DNA of 53,028 nt from Candidatus Epulonipiscium sp. (GTDB taxonomy: Bacteria; Bacillota; Clostridia; Lachnospirales; Defluviitaleaceae): contig JAAYQR010000002.1 of assembly GCA_012519205.1 (NCBI GenBank), positions 1 to 53,028 of the forward strand, given 5' to 3'. Made by a program: the position numbers and the translations under genes. Shown here piece after piece: positions 3,090-44,061 of this stretch; the first letter of the stretch is position 1, and the number at the start of each line of letters is the position of its first letter. The notes under the pieces are model-generated. The model did no database searches. It worked only from the letters and a program-made list of their open reading frames with translations, and was not told the origin of the DNA.

Positions 3090-3325
3090 ATAGATTTCTC
3101 CTTTCTTTTCATCTATTATAACGCATATAAGCTTGTTTTTCCAAGGAAGATCCAAACATATAAAATCTGTTTGCTAGCAATTTTTTTCTGATATAATAAG
3201 TTTGCTATATATATTATAAGTTTTTTGACGTAGATTTATTAAAGTTTTTCATTAAAGATGAAAACCATAATATAATGAGGCAAAATAACAAATACTGTGT
3301 AATACTAATGGATGGGAGGAAAAAA

Positions 3326-5985
3326 ATGAAAGCTTTTTATCAGAAAACTATAAATGAAGTCCTTAGAGAACTACATACGGATATCGATAATGGAATAACC
3401 AAAGAAGAAGCATCTATAAGGCTTTCTAAATACGGAGAAAATCACCTACAAGGAGAAAAAAGTAGGGGATTGCTACAGATGTTCATAGATCAATTTAAAG
3501 ATTTTCTGGTACTTATCCTAATTGGAGCAAGTATTGTATCCATGGTTGTTGGGGAGCCAAAAGATGCTATTATTATTCTAGCTATTGTTCTTTTGAATTC
3601 GATATTAGGTGTATTTCAAGAAAGTCGTGCAAGTAATGCCCTTAAGGCATTAAAGGACATGGCAGCTCCTCAAGCAAAGGTCATTAGGGATGGAAATTTA
3701 GAAAAGCTATCTTCATCAGAATTAGTTCCGGGGGATGTAGTAGTATTAGAAGCTGGCGACTACATACCGGCAGATCTTAGATTAGTCCAAAGTGTTAACC
3801 TTAAGATTGAGGAAGCGGCTCTTACCGGAGAATCTGTTCCAGTAGAAAAATTTGCTGGGGAAATGGTTGAGGATAATGCCGGTATAGGGGATAGGATAAA
3901 CTCTGCTTTTATGAGTACTATTGTTACATATGGCAGAGGAAAAGGTGTTGTTGTAGGGACAGGGATGAATACCGAAATAGGAAGGGTAGCCTCCATGTTA
4001 GAAGCAGTGAAAGAAGAACAGACCCCTTTACAAAAAAAGCTTACACAACTTGGGAAGCTACTTGGTACAGTGTGCCTAGGTATTTGTGCTATCATATTTG
4101 TTTTGGGGCTTTTAAGAGGTCAAGAACTAATCGATATTTTTATGACTTCAATTAGTTTAGCGGTTGCGGCAATTCCTGAAGGCCTTCCCACAGTGGTAAC
4201 AGTGGTTTTGGCCCTAGGAATGCAAAAGATGATAAAGCGTCATGCAATTATGAAAAGACTTGGTGCCGTAGAAACCCTAGGAAGTACCACCGTTATATGT
4301 ACAGATAAAACAGGAACTTTGACCCAAAACAAGATGACAGTTGTGAAGATATTTGATGGAGAAAATGTGTGGGATGTATCAGGAAGGGGATATACAACAG
4401 AAGGAGAAATAAAAAGAACTGACGATTCTAAAGCGGAAACATCCCCTGCCTTAGAACGACTTCTTAGAGCCGGGGTTCTTTGTAACGATGCCCAAATAAA
4501 AAGCGGAGCTAATGATATAATAGGAGATCCCACAGAGGGAGCTCTAGTGGTCTTAGGAGCTAAGGGAGGGTATCTTAAGGATACTTTATCTGTTGAAATG
4601 CCTCGTGTAGGAGAGATTCCTTTTGATTCCAAAAGGAAGTTAATGAGTACTTTTCATCAGCATAAAGAAGGTATTGTCATGTATACTAAAGGAGCTCCCG
4701 ATATTATCCTTAGCCGCTGTAAGTATATTCTTATTGATGGTAAGGTAATGGAGGTTACAGACAGTCATAAAAAAGCATAATGGAACAAAATACATCTTTT
4801 GCAAATGAGGCCCTTAGGGTTTTGGCTTTATCCTATAAGATGCCCAAAGAATTAAAAGAAGATTCAGAAGAAGAAAGTAACCTGATATTTTTGGGCCTTA
4901 TAGGGATGATGGATCCCCCAAGGGATGAGGCCAAGGAGGCAGTGGCTATCTGCAAAAAAGCAGGTATCCGTGTGGTTATGATTACGGGGGATCATAAGAC
5001 AACCGGAAGTGCCATAGGACGAGCCATAGGTATTATAGATACCGATGAAGGGGCAATGGATGGAAAAGAAATAGATGCCCTTGGTGATGAAGAACTAAAG
5101 GAAAAAGTAAAAACAATCAATGTATTTGCAAGGGTTTCTCCTGAGCACAAGGTTAGGATAATAAGGGCCGTAAGGGCTAATGGGGAAATTGCTGCTATGA
5201 CAGGAGATGGAGTAAACGACGCTCCTGCCTTAAAGCAAGCAGATATTGGCATTGCCATGGGCATCACTGGGACTGATGTTGCTAAGGAAGCGGCTGATAT
5301 GATACTTACCGATGATAATTTTGCCAGTATTGTTGATGCAGTTGAAGAAGGTAGAATTATATTTAGCAATATAAGAAAATTTGTAGGGTTTTTACTATCT
5401 TGCAATATTGGAGAATTACTTTTGATATTTGTTGCAATGTTATTTGGAAGTCCAGTGCCCCTTTTGCCAATACATCTACTATGGATTAATCTTATTACAG
5501 ATGCTTTTCCAGCGTTTGCCCTAGGGGTGGAACTTAAAGAAGAAGGGATAATGGATATGGCCCCTAGAAGTCCTGAGGAGCCAATCGTTAATAAAAAGAT
5601 GGGTATTGCTATCGGGATTCAAAGCACAGCCCTAGCATTGGCAGCATTATTATCCTTTTGGTATGGACTGAATAATTTCAAAGGAGAAGGTGCCCTTATA
5701 GCAGCAAGAACTTATTGCTTTATAACACTAGTAGTGGGCGAACTTCTAAGGGCATATTCGGCTCGTTCCGAGGAAAAAACAATATTCAAAATGAAAGTGT
5801 TTTCTAATAGGTTTTTAAACATAAGTGTTTTATGTTCACTACTATTGCTTATTGCAGTGGTATATATTCCATTCTTACAACCTATTTTTAATACTATGCC
5901 GTTATCATTTATGGATTTGGATATAGCACTACTCTTTGCACTTATTCCTACGATAGCCGGAGAAATTGCAAAAAAGCTAAAATAA
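3326..5985 (+). CDS. calcium-type P-ATPase (PMCA/SERCA-like), interrupted by one frameshift
   Basis: Cation pump of P-type class IIA, exporting Ca2+ at the expense of ATP. The first part (3326-4780) has the actuator TGES motif (T167-S170), the PEGLP membrane motif typical of Ca pumps, and the phosphorylation site DKTGTLTQ (D327). The second part (4780-5985) holds MTGDGVNDAP and the C-terminal membrane helices. Together about 887 residues, normal length. The break is in the nucleotide-binding domain: frame 1 stops at 4778-4780 just after an A6 run (4769-4774). One more A would restore ..HKKSIMEQN.. and a full-length protein. GGGAGGA supports the start at 3326. Either a sequencing or assembly error or a recent inactivation. 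Confidence 0.9.
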
Positions 5986-7251: not shown

Positions 7252-7962
7252 ATGAACAATATATGTAACTGTGATAATTGTCAGCACAAGCTTTGTGCTA
7301 GGAATGTACCAATATTCTCATCTCTTGATGCTGAAGAAATTCAAAATGTAGTAAGCCTGATTGTACACAAGCAATACTCAAAGGGTGAATTAATAATATT
7401 TGAAGGCTCTAATTTAGAAAGCCTTATTATAATTAATGAAGGAAGAGTCAAGGCTTTTAGACATACTTATGAAGGCAAAGAACAGATACTATATATTTTT
7501 TCTGCAGGGGATTTTTTTGGTGAAAAGAACTTAATTATAAACCAAGAGGCTACCTATAGTGTCGAAGCCTTAGAAGAGACAAATATATGTATGATTAGGA
7601 AAGATGATTTTAGGAGATTACTAAAAGAATACCCCATGCTTAGCTTTAAAATTATGGAAGAACTTGTTATACGCCTAGCGCATATGGAAGATTTAGTAGA
7701 AAATATGGGGGCAAAAAATGTTGAATCAAGAATTAATGGGGTACTATTGGAGTTTGCAAAAAAATACGGTAGATCTAATTCCAAAGGGATTATAGTAGAA
7801 CTTCCCTTAAGTCGTGAAGGCATAGCCAATTATATTGGATTAACTAGGGAAACCGTAAGTCGTAAAATGAGCCTCCTTCAAGATGAGGGAATTATAGAAA
7901 TGGTAGGAAATAAAAAGATTATCATAATAGATATAAAATCTTTAGAGAAATCTGTTGAATAA
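7252..7962 (+). CDS. Crp/Fnr family regulator with N-terminal cysteine cluster
   Basis: Transcription factor of 236 residues: cyclic-nucleotide-binding-like beta barrel (about 20-130), long dimerisation helix (about 130-155) and C-terminal winged helix (about 165-230). The N-terminus carries C5, C7, C10 and C15. C7-x2-C10-x4-C15 resembles the C-x2-C-x5-C of E. coli FNR, so an oxygen/NO-labile Fe-S cluster is plausible (inference). The recognition helix reads TRETVSR, combining residues that contact TGA-type half-sites in Crp and Fnr. A TGA-N6-TCA box lies just after the gene, in front of ric. Start supported by ATAGGAG upstream. Candidate regulator of the stress regulon described in the findings. 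Confidence 0.88.
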   Translation: MNNICNCDNCQHKLCARNVPIFSSLDAEEIQNVVSLIVHKQYSKGELIIFEGSNLESLIIINEGRVKAFRHTYEGKEQILYIFSAGDFFGEKNLIINQEATYSVEALEETNICMIRKDDFRRLLKEYPMLSFKIMEELVIRLAHMEDLVENMGAKNVESRINGVLLEFAKKYGRSNSKGIIVELPLSREGIANYIGLTRETVSRKMSLLQDEGIIEMVGNKKIIIIDIKSLEKSVE

Positions 7963-7973
7963 TTCAAAAATCA

Positions 7974-8014
7974 TGACTCTGGTCACAGTTTTATTTCCAT
8001 AAATACCTTAATAT
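7974..8014 (+). promoter_or_regulatory. Crp/Fnr box and class II promoter for ric
   Basis: TGACTCTGGTCACAG (TGA-N6-TCA at 7974-7985) is followed by a -10-like TAATAT at 8009-8014. Its first base is 29.5 bases from the palindrome centre, which puts the box near -41.5. No -35 hexamer is present, as expected for an activator-dependent promoter. Matching arrangements precede the flavodiiron gene, hcp, gapN and the second Crp/Fnr gene. Confidence 0.65.
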
Positions 8015-8039
8015 TTAACCATCAGTTGTTGATGGTTAA
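8015..8039 (+). terminator. hairpin ending the FNR-like gene, overlapping the ric start site
   Basis: TTAACCATCA / TGATGGTTAA form a 10-bp stem with a five-base loop, followed by TTTTATT. The predicted ric transcription start (about 8021) lies inside the first arm, so ric mRNA would not carry the complete hairpin while read-through from the upstream gene would. Confidence 0.5.
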
Positions 8040-8090
8040 TTTTATTGCCCATAAATCTATGATTTTATAATATGAATGGAGGATATAAAT

Positions 8091-8783
8091 ATGAAAACAT
8101 TTAATGTATCTCAAAGTATAGGAGATATTGTATCAATTATGCCAAAAGCCAGTGAAGTTTTTAAAACCTATCATATTGATTTTTGTTGCGGAGGGAATAG
8201 GCCCTTAGAGGAAGCAATCAAAGAACAGGGATTAAACAAGGAAGAAGTGTTGGAAAAACTAGAGGAAGCATACAACGAAACTAAAAAAATCACAAATCAA
8301 GTCGATTTTAGAAGCTTAAGTTCCGGTGAGTTAGTTGATTATGTTGTTAATACCCATCATAGTTATGCGAAAAAACTACTTCCTAGCATTAGCGAGCTTG
8401 CAACAACTATTTTGAGGGTTCATGGTCCAAGTCATAACTATCTCTTTAAGATTCATAAGCTTTTTCATGAGTTAAAGGCAGAATTAGAGCAACATTTTAT
8501 TAAAGAAGAACAAATTCTATTTCCTTTAATTAAAAAATATGATGATGAGGCTTCTAGTGATTTATTTGATAAGGTAAAAGAAGTTATAAAAGAAACAGAA
8601 GACGAACATGATGCAGCAGGAGATATTCTTAAGGAACTTAGAAAAACAACAGAAGATTATAAAGTTCCGGATGATGGATGTGCAACTTTTGATTTAACCT
8701 ATAGACAGCTTCAAGACCTTGAAGGAGATTTATTCGAACATATACATTTGGAAAACAATATACTATTTAAGAGATTCGAGTAA
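8091..8783 (+). CDS. ric: iron-sulfur cluster repair di-iron protein (RIC/ScdA/YtfE)
   Basis: Cytoplasmic hemerythrin-like di-iron protein (231 residues) that helps restore Fe-S clusters damaged by NO or peroxide. The N-terminal ScdA domain contains FCCGG (HIDFCCGGNRPLEEAI). The four-helix bundle supplies the ligands: HHSYAKK, HGPSHNY, EQHFIKEEQILFP, EDEHDAAG and FEHIHLENNILF. A frame extension to 8076 exists, but GGAGG at 8078-8082 lies inside it and sets the start at ATG 8091. First gene of a likely unit with the DUF1858 and DUF438 genes, although a repeat (8801-8876) lies between. Preceded by a Crp/Fnr box. Confidence 0.95.
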   Translation: MKTFNVSQSIGDIVSIMPKASEVFKTYHIDFCCGGNRPLEEAIKEQGLNKEEVLEKLEEAYNETKKITNQVDFRSLSSGELVDYVVNTHHSYAKKLLPSISELATTILRVHGPSHNYLFKIHKLFHELKAELEQHFIKEEQILFPLIKKYDDEASSDLFDKVKEVIKETEDEHDAAGDILKELRKTTEDYKVPDDGCATFDLTYRQLQDLEGDLFEHIHLENNILFKRFE

Positions 8784-8800
8784 ACATATCTTAAGCCCCC

Positions 8801-8876
8801 TGTCATCCTGAGCGATAGCAAAGGGATCTTATCTAAAACAAGAAGGATTAAGATTCTTCGCTCCGCTCAGAATGAT
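8801..8876. repeat. dispersed inverted-repeat element, copy 2
   Basis: TGTCATCCTGAGCGATAGCA..GGGATCTT is followed after about 20 bases by its inverse, AAGATTCTTCGCTCCGCTCA then GAATGATA. The arms occur in the opposite order from copy 1 (1904-2010), so the unit is paired head-to-head in one copy and tail-to-tail in the other. It lies between ric and the DUF1858 gene and could act as an mRNA hairpin. Confidence 0.75.
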
Positions 8877-8943
8877 AAAATAAATTCAGATGTATATTTT
8901 AAATATTATAGCAAAAAATAGAGAGCATAAAGAGGTGATACCG

Positions 8944-24969: not shown

Positions 24970-25164
24970 ATGAATAATATAAAATTAGCGCCCTATGAAG
25001 CTATCGAAGTTCGTGAATTCATATATAGTACATCAAAAAACAGAGTATGTATCATGAAAGATGATATACTCTGTTTTTTCTTGGGTTCATTTCATTACAA
25101 TTGTTTTTTAAAAGAAAGGAAATTCGAAATCAAAATAAATATGATGAATTTTAACAAAATATGA
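24970..25164 (+). CDS. small ORF, possible spore-coat-protein remnant
   Basis: A GGGAGGT ribosome site precedes an ORF starting MNNIKLAPYEAIEVREFI, reminiscent of the LAPHE..E..EL start of short ferritin-like spore coat (CotF-type) proteins. After about 20 residues the resemblance ends, and a strong terminator hairpin (25035-25079) lies inside the frame. The rest (64 residues in total) is probably read-through of non-coding DNA. A decayed coat gene or a leader peptide ending at the hairpin are both possible. The flanking region 24698-24969 shows nothing else. Confidence 0.35.
   Translation: MNNIKLAPYEAIEVREFIYSTSKNRVCIMKDDILCFFLGSFHYNCFLKERKFEIKINMMNFNKI
25035..25079 (+). terminator. strong intrinsic terminator inside the small ORF
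   Basis: AAAAAACAGAGTAT / ATACTCTGTTTTTT (14 bp) encloses a second paired segment (ATCAT / ATGAT) with a GAAAG loop, then TTTTTTC. It ends transcription before the flavodiiron promoter. Confidence 0.85.
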
Positions 25165-25202
25165 ATACGGTCACAGTTTTACTTTGGTGTATACAGTATT
25201 AT
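25162..25202 (+). promoter_or_regulatory. Crp/Fnr box and class II promoter for the flavodiiron gene
   Basis: TGAATACGGTCACAGTTTT (TGA-N6-TCA at 25162-25173) followed by TATTAT at 25197-25202, 29.5 bases from the centre. The right half, GGTCACAGTTTTA, is identical to that of the ric box. The flavodiiron start is 47 bases after the -10. Confidence 0.65.
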
Positions 25203-25248: not shown

Positions 25249-26478
25249 ATGGGAAAAGTAAAATTAGCTGAAAATATATTTTGGGTAGGGAAAGTAGATG
25301 ATAGAAAGGTACCTTTTCACAGGCTTATTTTAGAAAGAGGCACCACATACAATAGTTATCTTTTAGAAACCAAAAAACCAACCATTATCGATACAGTAGA
25401 CATTGCTTTTGCAAAAGAATATGTGGATAATTTAAGTGAAATGATAAATCTAGAAAAAATAGAATACATTATTATTAACCATGTGGAACCAGATCATGCA
25501 GGGGCACTGCCCGCGCTGGCTGCAAGAGCAAAAAATGCTAAGATTGTAACAACAAAATTGGGTTGTGAATTCTTAAAGAATATGTTTAAGCTTCATAACC
25601 GCGAATTCATCATCATAAAAGATAAAGGTACATTAGACATAGGAGGAAAGACCCTACAATTCTTTGAAACTCCTTATCTTCATACAGAGGAAACAATGAT
25701 AACTTATGAAATCGAAGATAAGATTTTATTCCCCTGTGATATTTTTAGCACCCATATAGCAAATGATGAGCTATTTAATGATTTGGCAAAGGGTGAATAT
25801 ATCGAAGATTTCAAGGTCTATTATAAGCTTATTATGGCACCCCATAGACCCTATGTGCGTCAGATGCTTGATAAAATAAGGAATTTAGATATTAATATCA
25901 TTGCCCCATCCCATGGCTATATCTTAAGAAAAGATACCAAGGATTTTATAAAAATATATGATGAAATGAGTACCCTAGAAGATTCTACAAAAGGTAAAAA
26001 AGTAACCATCCTATTCTCCACTATGACAGGAAACACAAGTAAAGTGGCAGGGGAACTGGTAGAAGGCCTTAAAACTTCAGGTGTGGAAACCTTCGTATTT
26101 AATTTAAAAAATGCAAATTTAGATGAAATCATAAGTAGAATTAAGGATTCAGATGGAATTTTAATAGGAAGTTCAACAAAATATGCCGATATGGTGGGCA
26201 ATGTTGAAGAACTCCTTAAAGAGTTAAAAAATATTGATAACAATGGGAAATGTGCTGCAGCCTTTGGTTCCTATGGATGGAGTGGAGAAGGGATTACCCA
26301 TGTGGAGGACTATTTAAATGATGCTGGATTTACTGTAATCAATCAAAGATACCTTATAATAAATAGGGGGGTAGATACCCCAGTATTTCCCTTAAGAGTA
26401 AAGTTCTCTAGTAGAGAAGGTTTAGAAACTGCAAGGGAAGCAGGTAAGATATTTGGAGAGCAAATTTTGACACATTAA
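25249..26478 (+). CDS. fprA: flavodiiron protein (O2/NO reductase)
   Basis: Cytoplasmic A-type flavoprotein (409 residues) reducing NO to N2O or O2 to water, a main detoxifier in anaerobes. The metallo-beta-lactamase-like domain has the di-iron ligands H78-x-E80-x-D82 (HVEPDHAG), H145 (YLHTEE), D164 (FPCDIFS) and H222 (PSHGYI). A flavodoxin domain follows (about 255-405) with the FMN loop FSTMTGNTSK. No rubredoxin fusion. ATGGAGGTATATAC precedes the start. Single gene between strong terminators, behind a Crp/Fnr box. Confidence 0.95.
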   Translation: MGKVKLAENIFWVGKVDDRKVPFHRLILERGTTYNSYLLETKKPTIIDTVDIAFAKEYVDNLSEMINLEKIEYIIINHVEPDHAGALPALAARAKNAKIVTTKLGCEFLKNMFKLHNREFIIIKDKGTLDIGGKTLQFFETPYLHTEETMITYEIEDKILFPCDIFSTHIANDELFNDLAKGEYIEDFKVYYKLIMAPHRPYVRQMLDKIRNLDINIIAPSHGYILRKDTKDFIKIYDEMSTLEDSTKGKKVTILFSTMTGNTSKVAGELVEGLKTSGVETFVFNLKNANLDEIISRIKDSDGILIGSSTKYADMVGNVEELLKELKNIDNNGKCAAAFGSYGWSGEGITHVEDYLNDAGFTVINQRYLIINRGVDTPVFPLRVKFSSREGLETAREAGKIFGEQILTH

Positions 26479-30599: not shown

Positions 30600-31835
30600 A
30601 TGAAACTGGATGGGAAGGTACTTGTAGCACAAGGAGGGGGACCAACGGCAGTCATCAATCAATCCCTCGTAGGAGTTGTCTTAGAGTCTAGAAAGTTTAC
30701 TCAAGTTACAAAGGTGTATGGAGCAGTAAATGGGGTTAGCGGGATAATAAATGAAGACTTCGTTGATTTAACCCAAGAAACTACCAATAATTTAGAACAA
30801 GTAGCTAGGACTCCTTCATCAGCATTACTTTCCACAAGAGATAAACCAGATGCAAAATACTGTAAGGAGATATTTAATGTGCTAAAGGCCCATGATGTAA
30901 GGTATTTTTTCTATATAGGGGGCAATGACTCTGCAGATACAGTGCGTATAGTTAATGAAAATGCAAAGAAATCTGACTATGAGTTTAGGGCTATCCATAT
31001 CCCCAAGACTATTGACAATGATCTAGTTCTAAATGATCATACCCCGGGATACGGTTCTGCTGCTAGATTTGTTGCCCAATCGTTTATAGGAGCTAATTTA
31101 GATAATAGGGCTCTGCCCGGGATATACATAGGAGTGGTGATGGGAAGACATGCAGGATTTTTAGCAGCTGCCTCATGTTTAGCCCAAAAGTATCCAGATG
31201 ACGGGCCACATCTTATATATCTGCCGGAAAGGGCATTCAATATTGATAGCTTCCTTAAGGATGTAAAGAAGGTATATGATAAATATGGCAGGTGCGTAAT
31301 TGCTGTTTCAGAGGGAATTCAAGATGAAAGTGGAATCCCGATTATTACAAAATTAATGGAAAATGTTGAAAAAGATGCCCATGGTAATGTTCAGCTTTCA
31401 GGCACAGGGGCCCTGGGAGATTTACTGGCAAGACATATTAAGGAAAAACTAAATATATCAAGGGTACGCTCAGATACTTTAGGATATTTACAGCGCTCAT
31501 TTATGGGCTGCGTTTCCGATGTAGACCAATATGAAGCTAGGGAGGTGGGAGAAAAGGCAGCTCAGTTTGCTATATGGTATAATATTGATGGTTCCATAAC
31601 AATACAAAGAACAGGTTTTTATTCTGTTAATTACGAACTAAAAAAATTAGAAGATATAGCGGGCAAAACAAAGGTTATGGCCGATAACTTTATTAATAAG
31701 GCAGGAAACAACATAACTGATGATTTTAAATATTATGTTCGCCCCCTTGTCGGCTCCGGACTTCCCGTAGCCCATAGAATAAGAGCACCAAAGACACCTA
31801 AAATTCTAAATAATAGAGAAAGCATATGTGGTTAA
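30600..31835 (+). CDS. pfp: pyrophosphate-dependent 6-phosphofructokinase
   Basis: Glycolytic enzyme using PPi to phosphorylate fructose 6-phosphate, 411 residues. The PPi preference is read from GGNDSADT (Asp where ATP enzymes have Gly at the second position of GGDG) and the Lys of PKTIDNDL. Other family blocks are AQGGGPTAVINQ at the N-terminus, TPGYGSAAR, MGRHAGFLAA and LGYLQRS. Reversible and energy-saving, typical of anaerobes. AAAGGAGGATTTAT precedes the ATG. Single gene; its terminator doubles as the hcp operator candidate. Confidence 0.94.
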   Translation: MKLDGKVLVAQGGGPTAVINQSLVGVVLESRKFTQVTKVYGAVNGVSGIINEDFVDLTQETTNNLEQVARTPSSALLSTRDKPDAKYCKEIFNVLKAHDVRYFFYIGGNDSADTVRIVNENAKKSDYEFRAIHIPKTIDNDLVLNDHTPGYGSAARFVAQSFIGANLDNRALPGIYIGVVMGRHAGFLAAASCLAQKYPDDGPHLIYLPERAFNIDSFLKDVKKVYDKYGRCVIAVSEGIQDESGIPIITKLMENVEKDAHGNVQLSGTGALGDLLARHIKEKLNISRVRSDTLGYLQRSFMGCVSDVDQYEAREVGEKAAQFAIWYNIDGSITIQRTGFYSVNYELKKLEDIAGKTKVMADNFINKAGNNITDDFKYYVRPLVGSGLPVAHRIRAPKTPKILNNRESICG

Positions 31836-31851
31836 GATTTTTATATATTTT

Positions 31852-31899
31852 AAATCCGTGATAAATATCACGGATTTATTTTTTGCTTTGTGTTATTAT
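31852..31899 (+). promoter_or_regulatory. pfp terminator hairpin overlapping a Crp/Fnr box, with the hcp promoter
   Basis: AAATCCGTGAT / ATCACGGATTT form an 11-bp stem followed by ATTTTTT, a good terminator for pfp. The same bases contain TGATAAATATCA (TGA-N6-TCA at 31859-31870), and TATTAT lies at 31894-31899, exactly 29.5 bases from the centre as in the ric and flavodiiron promoters. Predicted start near 31906, about 60 bases before hcp. Confidence 0.6.
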
Positions 31900-31967
31900 A
31901 TTCTTAGAAATCATACTAACTTTATATGAATAGTTTATAATTAAATTAAAATAGAGGAGGAATTTTA

Positions 31968-33599
31968 ATGTTTTGTTATCAATGTCAAGAGGCATCAAAG
32001 GGAATTGGTTGTACTGTAAGGGGTGTGTGTGGAAAGACGGGAGACGTTGCAAATCTGCAAGACTTATTAATCTACGCCCTAAAAGGAATCTCCATGTATA
32101 CAACAGAGGGTAGAAAAGTAGGAGTAGAATGCAAAGAAGCAGATAAATTTATTATGGAAAATTTATTTGCAACCATCACAAATGCTAATTTCGATAGAAA
32201 TGACTTTATTAAGAGAATTACAAGAGCATTAGAAATTCGTGATGAAGTTAAAAATAAAGTAGTAAATGCAGGGGGTAATGTGACTCTTGACCATGATGCG
32301 GCTAACTTTACATTAAGCGAAGCAGAATATGATAAAAAAGCAGAAGTTGTGGGGATTTTAGCTACAGAAAATGAAGATATCCGTTCTCTAAGGGAATTAA
32401 TAACCTATGGGTTAAAGGGAATGGCAGCTTATGGCAAACATGCCCTAAATCTAAACTATGAAAATAATGAAATTCATGCTTTCTTACAAAGGGCTTTGGC
32501 AGCCACTCTAGATGATACCTTGTCAGCTGATGATTTGGTTGCTCTCACATTAGAAACAGGAAAAGTAGGGGTGGATGTAATGGCACTTCTTGATGAGGCA
32601 AATACATCAACATATGGACATCCTGAAATTACAAAGGTAAATATAGGAGTTAGAAATAATCCTGCTATCTTAATCAGTGGTCATGACTTAAAAGATATGG
32701 AAGAACTTCTAAAACAAACAGAAGGTACAGGGGTTGACGTATATACCCATAGTGAAATGCTTCCGGCTAACTACTACCCAGCATTCAAAAAGTATTTACA
32801 TTTTGTAGGAAACTATGGAAATGCTTGGTGGAAACAAGATAGAGAATTCGAACAATTTAATGGACCAATCCTTATGACTACAAACTGCCTTGTACCACCA
32901 AAAGACTCTTATAGGGACAGGGTATATACAACAGGTTCTGTAGGATTTGAAGGACTTAAACATATCGAAGATGCTAAAGATGGAAAAAAGGATTTCACAG
33001 AAATCATTGAACATGCTAAGAAATGTGCATCCCCAATAGAAATTGAAAGAGGAGAGATTGTAGGAGGATTTGCTCATAACACAGTTTTATCCCTCGCAGA
33101 TAAAGTAGTAGATGCAGTTAAGTCAGGAGCTATCAAACGTTTCTTTGTAATGGCAGGTTGTGACGGAAGGATGAAGAGTAGAGACTACTATACAGAATTT
33201 GCAAAAGCTATTCCTGAAGATACTGTTATCCTGACAGCGGGATGTGCAAAATATAAATACAACAAATTAGAATTAGGAGATATCGGAGGAATTCCAAGGA
33301 TACTTGACGCAGGGCAATGTAATGACTCATATTCTCTTGCAGTTATTGCTCTTAAATTAAAAGAAGTATTTGAACTAAATGATATCAATGAATTACCTAT
33401 TTCCTATAATATTGCATGGTATGAACAAAAAGCAGTTATTGTACTTCTTGCCCCATTATATCTAGGGGTTAAGAATATCCACTTAGGACCAACCCTACCG
33501 GCATTCCTTTCACCAAATGTTGTTAAAGTACTAGTAGAGAACTTTGGAATTGGCGGAATCACCAATGTAGAAGATGATTTAGCAATGTTTATGGCATAA
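31968..33599 (+). CDS. hcp: hybrid cluster protein (NO reductase/hydroxylamine reductase)
   Basis: 543-residue Fe-S protein carrying a cubane cluster and the hybrid Fe-S-O cluster, active in NO reduction and protein S-nitrosylation chemistry; it also reduces hydroxylamine in vitro. The N-terminal motif C3-x2-C6-x8-C15-x5-C21 is the class I pattern of strict anaerobes. Further conserved segments include [27 protein letters not shown] and [19 protein letters not shown], with the late CAKYKYNKL and AGQCNDSYS cysteines. AGAGGAGGAATTTTA precedes the ATG. Its cytoplasmic reductase hcr is not adjacent. Predicted member of the Crp/Fnr regulon. Confidence 0.97.
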
Positions 33600-35213: not shown

Positions 35214-36023
35214 TTATACGAATAGGAGTAGGCTTATAGCCATAACAATCATTCCCGCTACAACTCCATATATGGATAAATGATGTTCACCGTATTTTTC
35301 AGCAGCAGGTAGCAGTTCATCTAGGGATATATAAACCATAATTCCGGCCACGGCAGCAAATAAGACCCCAAAGGTAACATCATTAAATATAAAAGATAAA
35401 AGAACATATCCAACCAAGGCTCCTACGGGTTCTGAAAGCCCAGATAAAAACGAATAAATAAAGGCTTTTTTTCTACTGCCTGTGGCATAGTAAATAGGCA
35501 CGGAAACAGCTATTCCCTCTGGTATATTATGAATTGCAATAGCCACAGCTATAGGGATACCAAGGGATGGATCTTTAAGAGCTGCCGTGAAGGTTGCAAG
35601 ACCTTCAGGGAAATTGTGGATTGCAATAGCCAAAGCAGTGAATACCCCCATACGGAGTAAGTTTTGATTATTAGAAGAATGAGATTTATCCATATCTTCT
35701 ACTTCATACATTTCATGGGGATTTTCAGATGAAGGTATGAATGCATCTATTAATGCAATTAAAAACATTCCAACAAAAAAACCTATCACTGTAAGCCAGG
35801 AACCTTTAACGGTGCCGAGGGCCAAAGTAAGAGAATCCTTTGCTTTTACGAATATTTCTATCATTGATACATAAATCATTACTCCTGCTGAGAATCCTAA
35901 GCTTATGGAAAGGAATTTTGTATTGGTTCTCTTTGCAAAAAAGGCTATTATGCTCCCAATTCCGGTAGATAATCCAGCAAACAGTGTTAATCCAAAAGCA
36001 ATAAGTAAATTTTCAAGTTCCAT
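35214..36023 (-). CDS. ZIP family metal transporter (ZupT-like)
   Basis: Inner-membrane importer of Zn2+/Fe2+ and related divalent ions, 269 residues with about eight helices. The paired metal-binding motifs [10 protein letters not shown] and [12 protein letters not shown] in helices IV and V, and [13 protein letters not shown], are diagnostic for the ZupT group. A charged loop (about 105-130, [13 protein letters not shown]) contains possible metal-binding residues. AGGAGGAATCC precedes the start. Divergent from gapN; the Crp/Fnr box between them lies correctly for gapN but not clearly for this gene. Confidence 0.92.
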
Positions 36024-36131: not shown

Positions 36132-36171
36132 TGACTTTAATCACAGTTATTAAAATAATAGCTGATATAAT
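36132..36171 (+). promoter_or_regulatory. Crp/Fnr box and class II promoter for gapN
   Basis: TGTGACTTTAATCACAGTT contains TGA-N6-TCA at 36132-36143 and a full TGTGA-N6-TCACA palindrome, the best box in the window. TATAAT at 36166-36171 begins 28.5 bases from the centre, placing the box near -40.5. The predicted leader of about 120 bases includes a degenerate repeat unit (36219-36247). Confidence 0.7.
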
Positions 36172-36218
36172 AAAAATCATATATTTAAAACCAAAATTCC
36201 ATGAACTGGAATAATATA

Positions 36219-36247
36219 ATATCCTTCACTTCATTCAGGATGCTAGG
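36219..36247. repeat. single degenerate unit of the dispersed repeat
   Basis: ATATCCTTCACTTCATTCAG followed by GATGCTA matches the AAGATCCTTCGCT..CAGGATGACA unit of copies 1 and 2 in order and spacing, without an inverted partner. Confidence 0.5.
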
Positions 36248-36296
36248 TAGAGCTTTAGTTCTATATGAAGGAATAAAACATTTAAGAGGTGATTAT

Positions 36297-37763
36297 ATGT
36301 TTTCATGTATTTTTAAAGAGGGAAATATTTATAAAAACCTATCCGGTGGACGCTGGATGGAATCTGAAGATGGGCAAAGGATAAAAATATTTTCCCCTGT
36401 AGATGATTCTTTGATAGGCGAGATACAAGCCCAAAGCAGAAATGATGTAGACTTTGCAATAAAGAGCGCTAGGAAAGCCCAAAAGGAATGGGGAAAGGTG
36501 CCGATAAGTGAGCGGGCTGAAATTATCCATAAGGCTGCAAGAATCATGGAAAAATATGAAGAAGAGATTGCCAATATTTTAGCAAAGGAAATTGCAAAAG
36601 CAAAAAGTTCCGCTATATCCGAAGTGAAACGTACAGTTGATTTTATGCATTTTACCGCAGAAACAGGCAAGAGAATGACAGGAGAAACAATCTATGGGGA
36701 TGCTTTTCCGGGATTTGATAAAACAAAAATATCCCTCGTGGAGAGGGTACCACTGGGAGTTATTTTATGTATTTCCCCCTTTAATTATCCTGTTAATCTA
36801 TCTATATCAAAAATTGCTCCAGCTTTGGTTGGAGGGAATAGTGTTGTGTTTAAGCCCCCAACCCAGGGCTCTATTAGTGCTATGTATTTGGGTCAAATTT
36901 TCTGTGAGGCAGGTTTACCGGCAGGAGTGCTAAATATTGTAACAGGAAGAGGCTCCGAAATAGGTGACTACCTTATTACTCATTCGGATATTGATATGAT
37001 TAACTTTACCGGTAGTACTGAGGTAGGTCATCATATTGCCAAGGAAGCATCGATGATGCCACTTTTACTTGAATTAGGGGGAAAGGATGCGGCTATCGTC
37101 TTAGAAGACTGTGACCTAGGCGAAACAGCCCAAAACATAGTAAAAGGAGCATTTAATTATTCAGGGCAGAGATGTACTGCTGTTAAAAGAGTATTAGTAA
37201 TGGATAGTATAGCAGATGAATTATCAGCAAAAATAGTAAAAGAAGTAGAAAAGCTAACCGTAGGAAAACCGGAAGATGATGCGCAAATTACTCCTTTGAT
37301 TAACGATAGGGCAGCCGATTTTGTACAAGAACTTATGGATGATGCAATTAATAAGGGGGCAAAGCTTCTAATAGGCAATAAAAGAGAAAAAAGATACATC
37401 TGGCCTACTGTGTTTGATAATGTCACTGAGGATATGAGGCTAGCTTGGGAGGAACCCTTTGGACCTGTGCTTCCTATAATAAGGGTGAAAACTATAGATG
37501 ATGCCATAAGAATTTCTAATGAATCAGAATATGGGCTTCAAGGCTGTGTATTTACCAAAAACATTGATAAGGCATTTGCAGTTGCCAGGAAACTAGAAGT
37601 TGGAACAGTACAAATAAATAATAAAAGCGAAAGAGGACCGGATCATTTTCCATTCCTTGGGATAAAGGCATCGGGACTTGGTACACAGGGGATTAGATAT
37701 AGTATTGAAGCAATGACAAGATCAAAGGCTATAGTTATTAATCTTGATAAGGACTTTGTATAA
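36297..37763 (+). CDS. gapN: NADP-dependent non-phosphorylating glyceraldehyde-3-phosphate dehydrogenase
   Basis: Aldehyde dehydrogenase superfamily enzyme (488 residues) oxidising glyceraldehyde 3-phosphate directly to 3-phosphoglycerate and yielding NADPH instead of NADH and ATP. It parallels streptococcal GapN closely: ISPFNYPVNLSISKIAPAL, FKPPTQGSISAM, NFTGSTEVG, E259 in LLELGGKD, C293 in YSGQRCTAVKRV, and WEEPFGPVLPIIRV. The frame opens at 36201, inside the promoter region; AGAGGTGATTAT sets the start at 36297. Preceded by a Crp/Fnr box, so NADPH supply is probably raised under the same stress as ric, fprA and hcp. Confidence 0.9.
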   Translation: MFSCIFKEGNIYKNLSGGRWMESEDGQRIKIFSPVDDSLIGEIQAQSRNDVDFAIKSARKAQKEWGKVPISERAEIIHKAARIMEKYEEEIANILAKEIAKAKSSAISEVKRTVDFMHFTAETGKRMTGETIYGDAFPGFDKTKISLVERVPLGVILCISPFNYPVNLSISKIAPALVGGNSVVFKPPTQGSISAMYLGQIFCEAGLPAGVLNIVTGRGSEIGDYLITHSDIDMINFTGSTEVGHHIAKEASMMPLLLELGGKDAAIVLEDCDLGETAQNIVKGAFNYSGQRCTAVKRVLVMDSIADELSAKIVKEVEKLTVGKPEDDAQITPLINDRAADFVQELMDDAINKGAKLLIGNKREKRYIWPTVFDNVTEDMRLAWEEPFGPVLPIIRVKTIDDAIRISNESEYGLQGCVFTKNIDKAFAVARKLEVGTVQINNKSERGPDHFPFLGIKASGLGTQGIRYSIEAMTRSKAIVINLDKDFV

Positions 37764-43266: not shown

Positions 43267-43335
43267 ATTATAAAATATAAAGAGAAATTCGGATATGATA
43301 TATATCACATTAATATAAGATGAAAAGTGTAATAT
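43267..43335. promoter_or_regulatory. shared Crp/Fnr box with two divergent class II promoters
   Basis: TGATATATATCACA (TGA-N6-TCA at 43296-43307) lies between divergent genes. To the right TAATAT (43330-43335) begins 28.5 bases from the centre; to the left, on the minus strand, TATAAT (43272-43267) begins 29.5 bases away. One dimer site could thus drive both the second Crp/Fnr gene and the unknown-protein/DUF1858 pair. Confidence 0.6.
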
Positions 43336-43375: not shown

Positions 43376-44061
43376 ATGGAAAAACATGTATCAGCACTAA
43401 AAAAGATTCCTATATTTTCACGATTATCAGATAACCGACTTATGGAAATCGCTAATCTCGAAGTTAAAAAAAATATATAAAAGGCGATATTATTTTTTCA
43501 GAAGGTGAAAAAGGAGAAGCATTTTACTATATAGAATCTGGTAAAATTAAGATGTATAAGACCTCCTTTGACGGACGAGAAGTTATCTTAAATATTTTCA
43601 AAGAAGGGGCCATTTTGGCAGAAGTAACTATGTTTAACAATATGGAATATCCTGCTACAGCAGAGGTGATTGAGGATGCAGTCGTTGGCATGATATATAA
43701 TAGGGATATTGAAAAAATGGTATTAGAAAATCGAGAACTGTCCTTGCAGATAATTAAGGAGCTAAGCAGCAGACTATTCTATTCCCAGATGAATGTAAAG
43801 GAAATGGCATTAAATGATGTATACATTCGAACAATTAAGGTATTAATTAACCTAGCAGAACAACATGGGGAAAAAACCAGTAGGGGGATAGAGTTTGATA
43901 TCGGAATAACAAGACAAGATATTGCTAGTATTATAGGTACGACAAGGGAAACTGCAAGCCGTGCTATGAGTCAGCTAAAAAAGAAAAGATATATCGATGT
44001 TGATGGAAAGAACATTATTATAAGAGATATTGAAAATTTAAAAGAGGAAATACAAGACTAA
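43376..44061 (+). CDS. second Crp/Fnr family regulator, interrupted by one frameshift
   Basis: About 228 residues if intact. The start (MEKHVSALKKIPIFSRLSDN) follows AGGGAGG. The frame stops at 43478-43480 just after an A8 run (43466-43473); one more A would give EVKKKYIKGDIIFSEG and run on into the cNMP-binding barrel (FYYIESGKIKMYKTSFDGRE), dimer helix and winged helix (ITRQDIASIIGTTRETASRA). The remaining open frame begins internally at 43552. Unlike the regulator at 7252 it has no N-terminal cysteines, but its recognition helix carries the same R-E-T-x-S-R pattern. Possibly autoregulated through the box just upstream. Confidence 0.85.

Follow-up and report, generated by a model that had tools for sequence, protein, structure and literature searches.

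One palindrome between pfp and hcp in a Candidatus Epulonipiscium genome very probably does two jobs, as the RNA hairpin that ends the pfp transcript and as the DNA docking site of a Crp/Fnr-family activator of hcp. The window, that is, the whole stretch of DNA analysed here, comprises 53,028 nucleotides, and the elements on and around the palindrome are as follows.

30600..31835, + strand, pfp, encoding diphosphate--fructose-6-phosphate 1-phosphotransferase (NCBIfam PRK14072.1, 494 bits, cut-off 273)
31851..31878, + strand, predicted terminator stem-loop TAAATCCGTGAT-AAAT-ATCACGGATTTA (-15.1 kcal/mol), with pfp as the co-directional upstream gene
31859..31870, + strand, predicted Crp/Fnr-type activator box TGATAAATATCA, centred at about -41.5 of hcp and called from spacing and conservation
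31879..31886, + strand, T-run TTTTTTGC after the stem, where pfp transcripts are predicted to end, about -27 to -20 relative to hcp
31894..31899, + strand, TATTAT, the -10 element of hcp, with no recognisable -35
31968..33599, + strand, hcp, encoding hybrid cluster protein / hydroxylamine reductase, the target gene (NCBIfam PRK05290.1, 883 bits, cut-off 367)

The sequence from 31851 onward, between the two + strand genes, reads TAAATCCGTGATAAATATCACGGATTTATTTTTTGCTTTGTGTTATTAT. The stem begins 16 nt beyond the pfp stop codon, and its arms (31851-31862 and 31867-31878) form 12 perfect pairs, four of them G-C, around a 4-nt loop and are followed by TTTTTT. The RNA hairpin has a minimum free energy of -15.1 kcal/mol (z = -4.5 against shuffles), and folding revealed no second stable hairpin in the interval between pfp and the box. 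A stable stem with G-C pairs, a short loop, a U-run and a position behind a co-directional gene, which are the marks of an intrinsic terminator, are all present. With shuffled flanks, a box extended into such a hairpin and followed by such a T-run arose with P ~4e-4.

The original prediction placed a TGA-N6-TCA box in the pfp terminator stem, at a distance from TATTAT equal to that at other promoters of the regulon, and both statements hold: TGATAAATATCA sits inside the perfect 12-bp hairpin, and its centre lies 29.5 bp from the first base of TATTAT (31894), a distance shared with fprA and a DUF2249 gene, and with a weaker TAATAT at ric. This position matches the class II geometry (about -41.5), and the hexamer 17 nt upstream of the -10 element, CGGATT, agrees with TTGACA at only two of six positions. 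The bare motif TGA-N6-TCA was rejected as evidence, being found at chance frequency in the window (14 observed vs 13.3 expected); it is the spacing and the conservation, not the bare motif, that carry weight for the predicted hcp box. Two further boxes of the same type are found in the window.

25162..25173, + strand, box before the fprA-like flavodiiron gene (25249-26478), 29.5 bp from TATTAT
7974..7985, + strand, box before ric (8076-8783), kept in relatives, with the weaker TAATAT at 29.5 bp

The genome-wide scan for the regulon was a pattern search, in which the long form TGANNNNNNTCACNGNTTTW matched the 2.13-Mb genome at four forward positions, before ric, fprA, hcp and the DUF2249 gene, against one match for the reversed-pattern control. 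Among the four sites the reverse strand also matches at hcp only, because the stem makes the half-sites identical there. The fourth box, on contig C12 at 19115, is 29.5 bp from TATTAT, as at hcp and fprA; the gene behind it we take to encode a DUF2249 protein from a reading of its sequence, with no family search behind the name. A composite pattern of box plus -10 element matched 13 times in the eight genomes of the family, compared with one match for the reversed control. Judged from these predicted sites, ric, fprA, hcp and the DUF2249 gene make up a coherent NO-stress (nitrosative-stress) set. In addition, a box GTGACTTTAATCAC at 36132-36143 of the window lies 28.5 bp from TATAAT before a gene for an aldehyde dehydrogenase (36201-37763); the ORF at 35214-36023 on its other side is divergent.

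The family comparison covered eight genomes (G000 to G007, the window's own included), and hcp of the seven others is 84-89% identical to that of the window. TGA-N6-TCA is present upstream of hcp in all eight, 98-119 nt before the matched hcp start, and in seven of them it keeps the 29.5-bp spacing to a -10 element TATTAT or TATCAT. The -10 of hcp in G002 is poor. The closing CCG/CGG stem and the T-run are found in three genomes only (G000, G002 and G004, from two genera), all with pfp upstream, and between the pfp stop and the box of these three no other stable hairpin was found. In G003, G005 and G007 pfp is also upstream and has its own terminator, and G006 has one for a different upstream gene; these separate terminators fold with -15 to -17 kcal/mol. 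In one example, the separate pfp terminator AAGTGATGTACCTCTAGGTGCATCACTTTTTG (-17.3 kcal/mol with flanks) precedes a box TTGTGATATAAATCACTGA that has no closing stem. At hcp of G001 the upstream gene is different; the box there is not extended into a longer hairpin, and no separate terminator is obvious. As a further observation on this region, a stretch of the hcp 5' leader (31912-31938 in the window) is conserved in most family members, reading ACATACTAAACATGTATGAAT in relatives, with the core TAAAC..TGT.

In the alignment of the seven distinct sequences, pairing reaches 97% in the box helix, where four of the five pairs never vary, and drops to 67% in the outer helix. The T/T mismatch, the T/G wobble and the mismatched third position that flank the box in species with a separate terminator are replaced by C-G, C-G and T-A in G000 and G002. 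Of these, G004 has the two C-G pairs beside the box, in a stem of 7 bp (-9.8) whose extension, taken alone, has P ~0.05 and is not unlikely by chance. Over the whole stem no compensatory changes were counted, as the box does not vary and the non-fused species, those that keep terminator and box apart, lack the outer stem altogether. Since the box is kept in 8/8 genomes and the outer stem only where pfp has no other terminator, the predicted hcp box is conserved beyond the requirement of pairing, which was the question posed with the original prediction for the TGA and TCA positions. The case that would have spoken against this, a stem kept with TGA-N6-TCA destroyed, was not seen in any of the eight genomes. 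Thus the proposal that the element may have two jobs is well supported by sequence (box 8/8, outer stem 3/8). The accompanying idea that a terminator was turned into a binding site fares less well, as the opposite direction, a constant box to which the hairpin was added, is favoured, although the tree does not polarise gain and loss within the family, as it does not resolve G000 against g3 and g2+g4. The fused species are a handful and do not clearly form a single clade.

Two candidate regulators are encoded in the window, and one of them is itself preceded by a box.

7252..7962, + strand, regulator A, an FNR-type Crp/Fnr protein with the HTH TRETVSRK, candidate activator, adjoining ric
43377..44061, + strand, regulator B, a Crp/Fnr protein without a Cys cluster, HTH TTRETASRA, its frame broken in this copy
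43296..43307, + strand, box TGATATATATCA before regulator B, also found before the orthologues in G001 and G006

Regulator A has Cys 7, 10 and 15 and the central Cys of ETNICM, all conserved in orthologues; these are the cysteines expected of FNR-type [4Fe-4S] regulators, the cluster itself being predicted. A hairpin TTTAACCATCAGTTGTTGATGGTTAA followed by TTTTATT (8014-8042), just 3' of its gene, overlaps the predicted -10 element and start of ric and is possibly the regulator A terminator lying on the ric promoter. Regulator B is a single frame in relatives, while the copy in the window has an in-frame stop after a run of eight A (about 43466-43473), which is either a real frameshift or an assembly error. 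In several relatives its orthologues are about 6-10 kb from hcp, and the box before the gene indicates that it is probably autoregulated. Elsewhere in the window a calcium-type P-type ATPase (3275-5985) appears as two abutting ORFs of 501 and 401 aa, which suggests a frameshift. The recognition helices R-E-T-V-S-R (A) and R-E-T-A-S-R (B) both fit R-E-x-x-S-R. It is known that R180 and E181 of the Crp/Fnr recognition helix correlate with TGTGA-type sites (Rodionov et al. 2005, PMC1274295), and this correlation predicts the site type TGTGA-N6-TCACA for both regulators. At high identity, regulator A was not found in G002 and G004 (85-91% complete), while regulator B was found in both, and both keep the hcp box; therefore B seems the better ancestral candidate for this box. 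If the frameshift in B is real and not an assembly artefact, A may act instead of B in the window genome.

Taken together, we consider it very probable that the 28-bp palindrome has two functions. In double-stranded DNA its inner 14 bp GTGATAAATATCAC, centred at about -41.5, would be the class II site on which a dimer of the Crp/Fnr family recruits RNA polymerase to the -35-less hcp promoter; in RNA the whole 12-bp stem with its U-run would end the pfp transcript. The box would be the family-wide constraint, and the outer stem would have been added in the fused lineage through mutually complementary flanks, so that pfp would need no terminator besides the box. What we infer from these features is the binding of regulator A or B, hcp activation and the efficiency of termination, and the two jobs would most likely be independent functions of one sequence. 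With pfp transcripts predicted to end at about -27 to -20 relative to hcp, mutual interference might be imagined, speculatively: a polymerase terminating there would lie over the core promoter of hcp, and an activator on the box would stand in the way of polymerase arriving from pfp. It is an extension of the dual-function explanation, and not an alternative to it, that activator binding might alter pfp termination or the read-through from pfp into hcp, so that pfp expression or its 3' ends would follow NO stress. We regard this as unlikely: what speaks for it is the geometry only, namely a box within the hairpin-coding DNA and a U-run close to the hcp start, whereas the relatives that separate the pfp terminator from the box keep the hcp box all the same, so that such cross-talk is not something the family as a whole depends on.

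Each component has precedents, since terminators, class II Crp/Fnr sites and the CRP-like regulation of hcp are all known. The predicted arrangement shares with class II Crp/Fnr promoters a palindromic TGA-N6-TCA near -41.5, 29.5 bp from the -10 element, the lack of a -35 and the NO-stress target hcp, but differs in that the site doubles as the terminator stem of the preceding gene. In Desulfovibrio wTGTGAnnnnnnTCACAw sites precede hcp, a CRP-like site is found in Thermoanaerobacter tengcongensis, and many clostridial hcp genes use GTAAC-N4-GTTAC, the HcpR2 box (PMC1274295). The hcp box analysed here is CRP-like, as in HcpR or Crp2-type regulation, and the R180/E181 rule fits both regulators; however, regulator A has FNR-type cysteines, which HcpR lacks. 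The core of the Desulfovibrio HcpR box is matched with C/G flanks (CCGTGA..TCACGG), and the non-fused relatives have TGTGA..TCACT. No HcpR2 box was found at the hcp genes of the family, which have TGTGA/CGTGA-N6-TCAC; GTAAC boxes occur in other families. Inverted-repeat pairs of the neisserial DNA uptake sequences form Rho-independent terminators (PMC2397512) and are likewise short DNA-recognised words with one role in DNA and one in RNA, although their DNA role is uptake and not activation of the next gene, and they are a genome-wide repeat. The CRP site at aatS is also a class II Crp-family site at gene ends, but it lies between convergent genes, and the part of that report available to us describes no terminator stem containing the site (PMC4892627). 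A limited literature search, which is not proof of absence, found no published case of a terminator stem that contains an activator box. The element is a clear case in which DNA recognition and RNA folding constrain the same sequence at once, and natural relatives carry the box alone. It illustrates how, in a compact genome, a handful of base changes beside an operator can create a terminator, and it cautions against treating a predicted terminator and a predicted operator as mutually exclusive. The element also offers a setting in which the effect of activator binding on termination can be tested.

A second overlap was found by the family pattern search in G001, which belongs to another genus.

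G001, contig C2, 33427-33468, minus strand, locus L196, hairpin containing TGTGATAAAAATCACA before a nitrite/formate transporter gene, which is followed by an asrA-like gene

The sequence AAAAAAGTCTGTGATAAAAATCACAGATTTTTTATTTG before this transporter gene, presumably nirC (the gene names at the locus are our reading of the sequence), forms a 14-bp hairpin of -15.4 kcal/mol with TATAAT at 29.5 bp. An ABC-transporter gene of the same direction, with no other obvious terminator, ends about 74 nt before it. The locus differs from the hcp overlap in flank, gene and genus; counted without G-U pairs, the extension is weak (P ~0.05). Outside the family, some hcp boxes of the GTAAC-N4-GTTAC type also have terminator-like extensions (L016 and L112), and the apparent overlaps (L015, L016 and L112) are not equally convincing. 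At L015 a near-identical hairpin, out of register with HcpR2, precedes the overlap by about 36 nt, so that L015 may simply be a normal terminator. In the wide genome set, 20/63 hcp boxes have at least three extra pairs vs 9.7 in permutations, with T-runs at 11/63 vs A-runs on the other side at 5/63, not clearly commoner. At L014 a 12-bp extended box has a T-rich tail, yet its upstream gene is divergent; a palindromic box before a T-rich promoter spacer can thus resemble a terminator by chance. Because such a structure occurs where there is no upstream gene to terminate, a general convergence across all hcp boxes is treated as suggestive only. A broader reading, which covers hcp in two genera and the nitrite/formate transporter in a third, is that stress-regulon boxes were repeatedly recruited as terminators of the preceding gene, coupling the two units, so that occupancy alters termination and a terminating polymerase occludes the promoter; we hold this to be doubtful.

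The same data bear on whether the palindrome is an activator box only, its RNA hairpin being incidental or reflecting a high-affinity symmetrical site, with pfp reading into hcp or ended by Rho. The excess of extra symmetry over the permutations and the extended box of L014, whose divergent upstream gene needs no terminator, are consistent with this, and half-sites may be selected for symmetry. We nevertheless consider it rather improbable, as a T-run lies directly 3' of the stem, the GC clamp is restricted to genomes where pfp has no other terminator, extension and T-run together are rare in shuffled flanks, and a second overlap exists at nirC in another genus. That the stem is a terminator only, with a coincidental TGA-N6-TCA and hcp using another activator site or a constitutive promoter, agrees with the chance frequency of the motif in the window but appears close to refuted and highly improbable, since the box is kept in five relatives without the stem at a fixed spacing to the -10 element and recurs in the same regulon of the window genome. 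The dual-function explanation is therefore preferred. Finally, the window has at 8795-8880 a repeat with TGTCATCCTGAGCGA...GCTCAG..TGA, perhaps a mobile repeat, and a similar stretch precedes hcp in the distant Clostridiales genome of L112.
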